This document shows, piece by piece, positions 18,500 through 21,667 of a DNA stretch of 21,667 nt. Positions within the stretch are counted from its first letter, which is position 1, and the number at the start of each line of letters is the position of its first letter. The translations under genes and the position numbers were made by a program. The stretch covers positions 1 to 21,667 of the IMG/VR virus record IMGVR_UViG_3300027752_000130; one strand, 5' to 3'. Under the pieces are notes generated by a model. It made no database searches, was not told the DNA's origin, and worked only from the letters and a program-made list of their open reading frames with translations. This DNA comes from a virus.

Positions 18500-18757
18500 A
18501 TGACTAAAGCAATTAAATTTTATGCTAATTGGTGCGGACCTTGTAAGGTTTATAATAAATCCTGGGGCAAAGTAGCAGAAAAACTTGGAGATAGTGTTGA
18601 ATTTGTAGAAGTAGATATTGAAAACGATACTACTGGAATCGCTGCAGAGTATAAAATTAGGTCAATCCCTTTTACAGTTATTGTTAAAGAGAATGAAACT
18701 ATAACTAGATCAGGAGTAATAAGAGAGACCGAATTAGAAGAATTAATATTAAATTAA
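18500..18757 (+). CDS. trxA: Thioredoxin
   Basis: An 85-aa thioredoxin fold with the classic WCGPC site (W11, C12, C15) and the cis-proline P57 in RSIPFT. It is shorter than E. coli TrxA (about 108 aa), as is usual for phage thioredoxins/glutaredoxins. Encoded just after nrdB and nrdA, it most likely supplies electrons to ribonucleotide reductase through the C-terminal CLSC pair of NrdA. In T7 thioredoxin serves as a polymerase processivity factor, but here there is no evidence of that. It starts one base after the stop of the 39-aa gene. Confidence 0.88.
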   Translation: MTKAIKFYANWCGPCKVYNKSWGKVAEKLGDSVEFVEVDIENDTTGIAAEYKIRSIPFTVIVKENETITRSGVIRETELEELILN

Positions 18758-19118: not shown

Positions 19119-19919
19119 ATGGCAAAACATGTAGTTGTAAGTCTTAGTGGAGGGATGGACTCCTCAACATTATTACTAAGAGCATTAAAAGAGTATGATA
19201 CCGTAACTGGTATATCATTCGATTATGGTCAAAAGCATAGAGTAGAGCTAGAAAGAGCTCAACAGTTAATTAACTATCTTGCTGATAATGGTCACAAAGT
19301 AAATTATCGTCAAATTCAACTAAACGGATTAGTAGACCTATTAGACTCAGCTCTAGTAGAAGGAGGAGATGATGTACCTGAAGGTCATTATGAAAATGAT
19401 AATATGAAAGAAACAGTTGTGCCTAATAGGAATAAGATGTTTGCTTCTATTACTCAAGCAGTCGCTTTATCTATAGCTAATAAATCAGAAGAAACTTGTG
19501 ATATTGCTTTAGGTATTCATGCTGGAGATCATGCAGTATACCCAGACTGTAGACAGGAGTTTAGAGATGCAGATGATGCTGCTTTTAGAGAAGGAAATTG
19601 GGATGCAGATAGAGTAGGGTACTTTACTCCTTATTTAGATACTGATAAATTTGGAATCTTACAAGATGGAGAAATACTTTGCGCTAAATTAAAAATCGAC
19701 TTTAATGAAGTTTATAAGAGAACGAATACATCATATAAGCCTTATCCTTCGGGAAATAGCGATTATAAGTCTGCTTCTAGTGTTGAGAGGATTGAGGCTT
19801 TTATTGCTCTTGGCAGAAAAGATCCCGTACAGTATGAGGATGAAACTGGAGAAGTGGATTACGAGGTAGCAGAGTCGCATGTAAAACAAATACTTGCAGA
19901 TCATGTTGGTCCATGTTAG
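19119..19919 (+). CDS. queC: QueC-like 7-cyano-7-deazaguanine synthase lacking the zinc cysteines
   Basis: A 266-aa PP-loop ATPase. The ATP site is SLSGGMDSS (8-16), followed by ISFDYGQKHRVEL (32-44) and VVPNRNKMF (100-108), all typical of QueC, which makes preQ0 from carboxy-deazaguanine with ATP and ammonia. Near the C-terminus, standard QueC has four cysteines holding zinc; the aligned stretch TNTSYKPYPSG then NSDYKSASSVER keeps the flanking TxxSY and VER sequence but replaces the cysteines by S205, D215, S218 and S221. The protein is somewhat longer than bacterial QueC (about 230 aa). Phages use preQ0 to make deazaguanine DNA, or feed tRNA modification. A QueD-like gene lies at 21451; QueE and GTP cyclohydrolase are not in the window. 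Confidence 0.85.
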   Translation: MAKHVVVSLSGGMDSSTLLLRALKEYDTVTGISFDYGQKHRVELERAQQLINYLADNGHKVNYRQIQLNGLVDLLDSALVEGGDDVPEGHYENDNMKETVVPNRNKMFASITQAVALSIANKSEETCDIALGIHAGDHAVYPDCRQEFRDADDAAFREGNWDADRVGYFTPYLDTDKFGILQDGEILCAKLKIDFNEVYKRTNTSYKPYPSGNSDYKSASSVERIEAFIALGRKDPVQYEDETGEVDYEVAESHVKQILADHVGPC

Positions 19920-20401: not shown

Positions 20402-20474
20402 TGTCTTATGGTGTAATTGGTAACACGTCTGTTTTTGGTACAGAAGAGTTCAGGTTCGAGACCTGATGAGACAA
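20402..20474 (+). tRNA. tRNA-Gln (anticodon UUG)
   Basis: A full cloverleaf: acceptor TGTCTTA/TGAGACA (7 bp, one G-U), D arm GTGT/ACAC with loop AATTGGTA, anticodon stem TCTGT/ACAGA with loop TTTTGGT (U33, anticodon UUG, reads CAA), and T arm CAGG-TTCGAGA-CCTG. The discriminator is A. The 3' CCA is not encoded, so host CCA-adding enzyme is needed. CAA is the common glutamine codon in these AT-rich genes, so the tRNA would help late translation. It lies directly after the candidate RNA and 13 bases before the next gene. Confidence 0.93.
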
Positions 20475-20487
20475 CAAATAATAAGTT

Positions 20488-21153
20488 ATGAATAAAGAAC
20501 AAATCACAGTTATATTTTGTATACCAGGAAATTCTTTTTCCGGCAACTTCTTAAAAGCTTGGACGAACCTTTTTGTATGGTGTATTAATAATAATGTTAA
20601 TCCTATACTAAGCAACCATTATGATTCAAATGTGTATTATGCCAGGCAAAAATGCTTAACACCAGATGTGAGTAAAGGTATATACCAAAAACCCTTTGGC
20701 GGTACAGTTGATTATGACTACATTATGTGGATTGACTCAGATATGTTCTTTTCTCCAAAGCAATTCGAAGAGTTAATGGATATGGATAAAGACATAGCAT
20801 CTGGTATTTATAAAATGCAAGATCAAGTAGGTTACGCTACTGTAGAAAAGTATAATAATCAAGAGTTTATAGAGAATAGTAAGTTTACATTTTTAAATGA
20901 TGAAATACTCTCAAAAAAACCGGATATATTCCCAGTAGAGTACACTGGTTTTGGTTGGATGCTTATTAAGAAAGGAGTTATAGAGAGTATGGAATATCCC
21001 TGGTTTAGACCAGAGTGGATGAATTTCGGAAACGACATAAAAGATTTTACTTCAGAAGATGTAGGTTTCTGTATAAATGCTATCAAAAAAGGGTATAAAA
21101 TTTACGTAAACCAAAAAATACGTGTTGGACATGAAAAAAGTTTGATAATATAA
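20488..21153 (+). CDS. GT-A fold glycosyltransferase
   Basis: A 221-aa protein with the features of a small GT-A nucleotide-sugar transferase: start ITVIFCIPGNSFSG as the first strand, DYIMWIDSDMFF with the metal-binding DSD at 83-85, DIASGIYKM near 102-110, TGFGWMLIKKGV at 153-164, and TSEDVGFC at 188-195 with an acidic pair in the acceptor region, then GH at 214-215. Related phage enzymes are common in T4-like genomes. Targets could be DNA bases, virion proteins or host surface sugars; the sequence does not say. It lies 13 bases after a tRNA and is followed after about 60 bases by a membrane protein and QueD. DNA modification is one possible link with the QueC/QueD genes, as inference only. 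Confidence 0.75.
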   Translation: MNKEQITVIFCIPGNSFSGNFLKAWTNLFVWCINNNVNPILSNHYDSNVYYARQKCLTPDVSKGIYQKPFGGTVDYDYIMWIDSDMFFSPKQFEELMDMDKDIASGIYKMQDQVGYATVEKYNNQEFIENSKFTFLNDEILSKKPDIFPVEYTGFGWMLIKKGVIESMEYPWFRPEWMNFGNDIKDFTSEDVGFCINAIKKGYKIYVNQKIRVGHEKSLII

Positions 21154-21450: not shown

Positions 21451-21667
21451 ATGGGAAAATTTCAATCAAGTAAAGTCTTTGACGGGTTTAGTACAGTATT
21501 CCGTCAATGGAAAGCAGAAACAACACACTGTAGGTATGTACATGGATACGGTATATCATTTAAAATCTATTTTGAAGGAAAATTAGACGAGAGAAACTGG
21601 GTCTGGGACTTCGGAGGCATGAAAAGAGCAAAAACCAAGATAGACGGAAAGTCTCCTAAAGAGTGGA
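21451..21667 (+). CDS. queD: QueD-like 6-carboxy-tetrahydropterin synthase (3' end outside window)
   Basis: The first 72 residues of a protein of the QueD / 6-pyruvoyl-tetrahydropterin synthase family, cut by the window end. The core THCRYVHGYGISFKIYFEG matches the family's C-x3-HGH-x region; the catalytic-type cysteine is C27, and WVWDFGGMK at 50-58 fits the segment before the substrate pocket. Usual zinc ligands are three His; here H31 is kept, the HGH second His is Y33, and the usual His of the F-x-A-x-H motif appears replaced by F17 (FSTVF). QueD makes carboxy-tetrahydropterin in the route to preQ0, one step before QueE and two before QueC (19119). It has no Shine-Dalgarno sequence; ATG 21451 lies 9 bases after the previous stop. 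Confidence 0.78.
   Translation, partial: MGKFQSSKVFDGFSTVFRQWKAETTHCRYVHGYGISFKIYFEGKLDERNWVWDFGGMKRAKTKIDGKSPKEW

Follow-up and report, generated by a model that had tools for sequence, protein, structure and literature searches.

We analysed a 21,667-base virus fragment (21.7 kb, hereafter the window), in which a predicted queC gene is followed by a queD of the 6-pyruvoyl tetrahydropterin synthase family, cut by the window end (Table 1). For the QueC protein, the Pfam family PF06508 (QueC) gave a match of 8e-37 over residues 5-229, with 127.2 bits against a gathering score of 22 bits, and PHROG 1550 (phrog_1550, QueC-like) matched at 2.8e-43. The NCBIfam equivalog TIGR00364 scored it at 123.9 bits, under the cut-off of 150.3; a cysteine-bearing relative (L168) also fell under the same cut-off (141.3 vs 150.3 bits).

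Table 1. Features of the window, with positions counted from its first base
Feature	Positions	Strand	Details
Thioredoxin-like gene, two ORFs upstream of queC	18500..18757	+	PF00085 5.1e-15
queC, predicted zinc-less 7-cyano-7-deazaguanine (preQ0) synthase	19119..19919	+	266 aa
ATP-binding loop SGGMDS, intact	19146..19163	+	residues 10-15; translation
YGQKHRVE (YxQxHxxE motif), intact	19224..19247	+	residues 36-43; translation
VPNRN (VPxRN motif), intact	19419..19433	+	residues 101-105; translation
YPDC motif, intact	19539..19550	+	residues 141-144; translation
Former zinc site: Ser205, Asp215, Ser218 and Ser221 replace four Cys; Tyr206 retained	19731..19781	+	alignment; codons 19731-19733 (Ser205), 19761-19763 (Asp215), 19770-19772 (Ser218), 19779-19781 (Ser221)
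tRNA-Gln (TTG anticodon), between queC and next gene	20402-20475
221-aa protein	20488-21153		PHROG 1574, weak glycosyltransferase match
queD (6-pyruvoyl tetrahydropterin synthase family), cut by window end	21451..21666	+	PF01242 5.4e-07, residues 12-66

A thioredoxin-domain gene (gp022) is also found upstream of queC in the Flavobacterium phage vB_FspM_immuto (complete, 160 kb; hereafter immuto), and we know of no link between such a gene and queC. Downstream of its queC, immuto has four similarly placed tRNA genes, Gln among them.

The preliminary description of this gene, made from the sequence alone, considered the ATP site intact, and SGGMDS is indeed present. Across 58 aligned QueC the invariant residues were S10, G11, G12, D14 and S15 of the ATP loop, Y36, H40 and E43 of the second motif, R104 and N105 of the third, and Y141, P142 and D143 of the fourth. 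The available portion of PMC13329287 lists YxQxHxxE, VPxRN and YPDC as QueC motifs, and identifies its motif-less clusters as other enzymes, LarE and GMP synthase. It also gives as essential the E. coli QueC residues Y35, R99, Y131 and Y189, which correspond to Y36, R104, Y141 and Y206 of the window QueC, the last pair being matched by motif.

For the zinc site, we considered 261 QueC representatives (75% identity): 192 with four cysteines, 68 zinc-less and one lacking the second cysteine only. The four residues shown essential in E. coli were unchanged in 68/68 zinc-less representatives. The window QueC lacks the motif C(x)8CxxCxxC, which PMC13329287 names as a hallmark of QueC; it reads S-D-S-S at the positions that read C-C-C-C in the 192 zinc-type representatives. 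The loss of all four zinc cysteines, as originally described, is thus borne out by the alignment, and so is the retention of the sequence around them, both the Tyr that follows the first position and the Arg of V-E-R being unchanged. The site lies inside TNTSYKP...SDYKSASSVERIEAF; the stretch originally delimited (19731-19803) stops in the codon after Phe228.

We rejected a takeover of the site by alternative cysteines, since none substitute in the 100 aligned phage-clade sequences. In these, the YPDC cysteine (Cys144) is the sole invariant cysteine of the window QueC, the others being variable (Cys127 in 50/100, Cys188 in 81/100, Cys266 in 2). A metal might still be bound through Asp215 together with the serines, the backbone or a partner protein, given that hard metals accept Asp and Ser as ligands and that an acidic or amide residue occurs in nearly all replacement types. 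We give this a small chance, because the replacements vary by lineage and are mostly Ser or Thr, which are poor zinc ligands, and because no invariant His or other Cys adjoins the former site in the sequence of the aligned zinc-less QueC.

S-D-S-S was present in 80/80 of the closest IMG/VR loci (the best 80 of at least 599 matching stretches) and in 40 further phage loci; the other 40 loci of that further set, which were found with a mycobacteriophage QueC, had four cysteines. The sharing of S-D-S-S across phage loci is far beyond chance. When 99 distinct relatives were aligned with the window QueC, residues 202-206 and 214-229 were the least variable, with 0.2% and 2.4% non-majority residues, and the remaining blocks of QueC had 14-31%. 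Ser205, Ser218, Ser220 and Ser221 were Ser in 100/100 of these phage-clade sequences, in spite of the use of both the TCN and the AGY codon families at the site, which points to purifying selection on the new residues. For this reason we rejected random decay of the zinc site, against which the preliminary description had also argued: nowhere in the protein is conservation stronger than at the replaced site. That description had counted it as a refutation if a group of phage QueC shared the change and yet worked in the ordinary way. Such a clade does exist as far as the change is concerned, with S-D-S-S throughout; its ordinary activity we infer from the evidence below.

Within this clade, a near relative (L006) encodes a QueC 99.6% identical to that of the window from DNA that is 83-87% identical, and the QueC of immuto (gp028) is 70% identical and has the S-D-S-S site. 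One phage QueC (L324:2983-3786) is an apparent natural mosaic, the first ~200 residues of which are planctomycete/archaeal-like and the C-terminal end of phage type (SDYKSASSVER).

The neighbours of queC were considered next to those of its relatives. In the window queC has queD as its neighbour, and folE, dpdA and queF were not seen within this 21.7-kb fragment; the near relative L006 runs on past queC into full queD and queE. In immuto the set of FolE, QueD, QueE, QueC and DpdA is complete, and is annotated as QueC (KNV73_gp028), QueD (gp216), QueE (gp214), FolE (gp210), DpdA (gp206) and, in addition, QueF (gp202). Pfam confirmed the PTPS (PF01242), the GTP cyclohydrolase I (PF01227) and the QueF_N plus QueF domains of a bimodular QueF (PF14819+PF14489); it gave Radical_SAM only for QueE and no match for DpdA. 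Among 120 phage-clade loci searched with tblastn, we found dpdA in 89, queD in 80, queE in 78, folE in 64 and queF in 29, counts that are lower bounds because many of the fetched stretches are short. At least one of queD, queE, folE, dpdA and queF was present in 110/120 loci, and queD, queE, folE and dpdA were all present in 51/120. The QueF of immuto and of these 29 loci would be of use only if the QueC supplied the nitrile preQ0.

We also searched the window QueC against 84,980 species genomes and took the best 80 of 359 relatives. Of these 80, 73 were zinc-less, 6 had four cysteines and 1 was too short, being cut off (L174). The zinc-less ones comprised 17 of type 1 (S-D-S-S), 55 of type 2 (S-x-[ST]-D) and one G-H-T-D (L157). 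Nine zinc-less loci (L100-L107 and L173) resembled phage contigs binned in MAGs, and we excluded them from the cellular count. Type 1 was carried by Cysteiniphilum, Facilibium and relatives, and type 2 by Poseidoniales, Pirellulaceae/Mariniblastus and Neomarinimicrobiota (Marinimicrobia). The Cysteiniphilum/Facilibium QueC are 53-54% identical to that of the window; the Cysteiniphilum gene adjoins queD and queE amid enolase, ispD and an mscS-type channel, and is chromosomal, outside any prophage.

Sixteen whole genomes were considered, 15 with a zinc-less QueC and one (L168) with the cysteines. Each of the 16 had one QueC above 119 bits, with every other match below 30 bits, so that the zinc-less QueC was the only one in 15/15 zinc-less genomes. 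QueD was found in 16/16 (15/15 zinc-less) and TGT in 15/16 (14/15 zinc-less), being absent only from the small MAG of L171. As for the wider groups, 15 of the 32 genomes in the order of Cysteiniphilum had a QueC, zinc-less in 13 and with cysteines in 2. In the phylum of Poseidonia 55/60 genomes matched, of which 9 were zinc-less, 30 had cysteines on inspection, 1 was a fragment and 15 were uninspected. All the 30 loci opened in the planctomycete phylum carried cysteines, as did the lower-scoring fetched ones, many of which are paralogue-like; zinc-less QueC is hence a minority in that phylum. One Poseidoniales zinc-less QueC of 386 aa (L117:4992-6149) carries a fused methionine-sulfoxide reductase B domain at its C-terminus (PF01641, residues 267-381; TIGR00357, 172 bits), an extension that is shared by several Poseidoniia proteins. 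One MAG (G256, loci L469 and L475) holds a cysteine-bearing QueC together with a phage-type zinc-less one, the latter probably on a phage contig binned with its host.

These data bear on a partial reaction, in which QueC would halt at 7-amido-7-deazaguanine (ADG) and the phage DNA would receive dADG. In fact, dADG is known as a phage base and QueC passes through ADG on its way to preQ0, according to the available parts of PMC13329287 and PMC6884629. Against a halt at ADG, the zinc-less QueC occurs together with QueF, the reductase of the nitrile preQ0, in immuto and in 29/120 loci, every substrate-pocket residue shown to be essential is retained, and the zinc-less QueC is the sole QueC in cells that keep TGT. 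Moreover, the dADG phage CP220 of Campylobacter carries a QueC with the complete set of four cysteines, so that zinc loss and ADG do not go together. We give the partial reaction a very slim chance.

Zinc-less QueC of two other types were found in phages. The QueC of Cellulophaga phage phiSM, used as a query, gave 80 fetched loci, 40 of them with four cysteines, 33 of type 3 (D-x-N-[ST]) and 7 without the second cysteine only. These seven (L190, L191, L193, L194, L195, L197 and L198) have an inserted loop (SSEQGTEEDPF-like) before CPAC. Phage QueC without the second cysteine only may possibly be an intermediate toward zinc loss. Type 4 ([AS]-[TV]-[DN]-[STN]) was found in phages of Rhizobium, Achromobacter, Microcystis, Dinoroseobacter, Pseudomonas and Acinetobacter. 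One of them, Pseudomonas phage Iggy, has queE, queD, folE and dpdA near its queC; its host Pseudomonas, which has a QueC, could supply preQ0 itself, and this weakens Iggy as evidence. Going by the title of a 2023 work by Olsen, the DNA of the Iggy lineage reportedly contains dPreQ0.

The rows for the trees were clustered by identity, certain chosen rows being retained in every case, and the zinc columns were excluded throughout. The tree of 77 rows requires three changes of zinc state, and on these rows we rejected one origin for all the zinc-less QueC (AU p 1e-53). A single loss for types 1 and 2 was compatible with the data (AU p 0.40); in the careful tree, three cysteine-bearing rows (L168, L175 and L176) are placed within types 1 and 2, so several losses or a regain are possible there. 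Grouping types 3 and 4 in a single clade gave p 0.73 on the 77 rows, the constrained tree being better than the free one, whereas on a denser set of 40 rows the starred branches force two changes, with a borderline rejection (AU p 0.047). Two of the three losses are thus firm and the third is borderline. Judged by these trees, zinc was lost at least twice, with four residue solutions, and the losses probably number three or more.

The AlphaFold2 model of the window QueC, made from the alignment of 58 sequences, had a pLDDT of 93.6 and a pTM of 0.92; for residues 201-240 the block means were 93-98. The closest solved structure was B. subtilis QueC (3bl5; Z 19.5, rmsd 2.7 over 190 residues), to which residues 2-234 of the model were aligned, so the former zinc region falls within the aligned QueC fold. 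Erwinia QueC (2pg3) followed at Z 18.4, and Cap9 of type IV CBASS (9nto) lay between the two at Z 18.8. The new structural solution proposed in the preliminary description agrees with this, the predicted fold spanning the region with high confidence and the site being strongly conserved; Ser205, Asp215, Ser218 and Ser221 would there form a hydrogen-bond network.

The same description had also suggested a changed reaction, by analogy with QatC and type IV CBASS, and on this point our results speak otherwise. A changed reaction is unlikely because all the residues essential in E. coli are present in 68/68 zinc-less representatives, the gene travels with queD, queE, folE, dpdA and queF, and in cells it is the sole QueC; the analogy does not hold either, as the published QatC and Cap9 retain the zinc cysteines. 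We considered, in particular, a protein-modifying relative of the QatC/Cap9 kind or an anti-defence decoy. Qat and type IV CBASS do employ the QueC fold, for the deazaguanylation of proteins, and in VIA-align Cap9 is close to our model, tied within 1 with QueC. Nevertheless, the top structural match is B. subtilis QueC, the motifs YxQxHxxE, VPxRN and YPDC are present in the window QueC and absent from QatC, PADLOC found no defence partner among the five neighbouring proteins scanned, and the gene context is that of preQ0 and DNA modification. A changed role of this kind has, in our judgement, a very slight chance.

We therefore consider that the window gene very probably encodes a working zinc-independent preQ0 synthase, in which a polar network replaces the structural zinc and keeps Tyr206 placed; activity, product, hydrogen-bond network and absence of metal are our reading of the sequence, its conservation, the gene context and the predicted fold. 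FolE, QueD and QueE of the phage would make 7-carboxy-7-deazaguanine, which the zinc-less QueC would convert into the amide and then into preQ0 in two ATP-dependent steps, like ordinary QueC. DpdA would insert the resulting base in the phage DNA, and where a phage QueF is present preQ0 would probably be reduced to preQ1 first. The small C-terminal subdomain, which would bring the essential Tyr206 beside the active site and is normally tied by the Cys4 zinc, may here be held by the polar network of Ser205, Asp215, Ser218, Ser220 and Ser221, with the near-invariant Tyr-Lys between them. According to the available portion of PMC13329287, QueC requires zinc to function, which counts against zinc-free activity. 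Zinc seems to be replaceable all the same, since the residues that bind it are gone and yet the other evidence fits the usual QueC job. More generally, it is likely that catalysis can do without the Cys4 zinc, a structural staple that would have disappeared on at least three occasions, with different polar networks (S-D-S-S, S-x-[ST]-D, D-x-N-[ST] or [AS]-[TV]-[DN]-[STN]) in its stead. The entire preQ0 supply of Cysteiniphilum and relatives, Poseidoniales, some planctomycetes and Marinimicrobia would then come from a metal-free enzyme.

As for the reason of the loss, zinc scarcity or a fast phage takeover could have favoured it, as for DksA2/FolE2, and this would be compatible with a zinc-independent synthase. 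Other zinc proteins are known to have zinc-free paralogues that Zur controls (PMC8000910, in the part available), three losses are seen on the trees and many carriers are marine plankton, going by the record labels. On the other hand, zinc-less QueC also occurs in wastewater Pseudomonas phages and in phages of Rhizobium, and the immuto pathway retains GTP cyclohydrolase I (PF01227) and QueD (PF01242). Both families are zinc-dependent, and with both kept in the pathway little zinc would be saved. Zinc sparing is thus a plausible but weak reason, and we regard it as rather doubtful.

In the available portions of the open-licence PubMed Central literature, including PMC13329287, PMC6884629, PMC13279940, PMC6103462, PMC8000910, PMC11008142 and PMC11945000, we found no description of a zinc-free preQ0 synthase and no activity measurement for a zinc-less QueC. 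PMC6884629 groups phage QueC, and the word cysteine is absent from its main text as available. The zinc motif is in use as a defining feature of QueC. With natural zinc-free members at hand in phages and in cultured bacteria, what the zinc does becomes directly testable. The set would represent a convergent replacement of a metal by a polar network in a catalytic subdomain and would give phage DNA modification a metal-independent part. In marine archaea, planctomycetes and phages, genuine preQ0 synthases will probably be overlooked if annotation relies on the cysteine motif or on the equivalog cut-off.

Compared with canonical QueC (E. coli, B. subtilis 3bl5, Erwinia 2pg3), the window QueC has the same fold, ATP loop, YxQxHxxE, VPxRN and YPDC motifs, Tyr after the first zinc position and pathway neighbours, but the four zinc cysteines are replaced and the identity to the solved chains is about 27-30%. 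The immuto QueC shares the site of the window QueC, with a longer loop between positions 1 and 2, and is annotated as a QueC with the complete preQ0/DpdA/QueF set and no remark on the missing cysteines. The Cysteiniphilum/Facilibium QueC have the same Ser-Asp-Ser-Ser site and adjoin queD and queE; unlike that of the window, they are cellular and the sole QueC, presumably serving tRNA queuosine. QatC and Cap9 share the QueC fold and the ATP loop, but they act on protein N-termini and keep the zinc cysteines, so zinc loss is not a mark of those defence enzymes. Precisely, QatC (Qat defence) has lost the substrate motifs, has N- and C-terminal extensions and retains zinc, whereas the window QueC keeps the motifs and has lost zinc; Cap9 is about 185 aa long, with a zinc motif and a CD-NTase neighbour, whereas the window QueC has 266 aa and no zinc motif. 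A parallel in kind is that of DksA2/FolE2, zinc-free versions of zinc proteins doing the same job; these, however, are second copies under Zur control, whereas the zinc-less QueC is the only copy.
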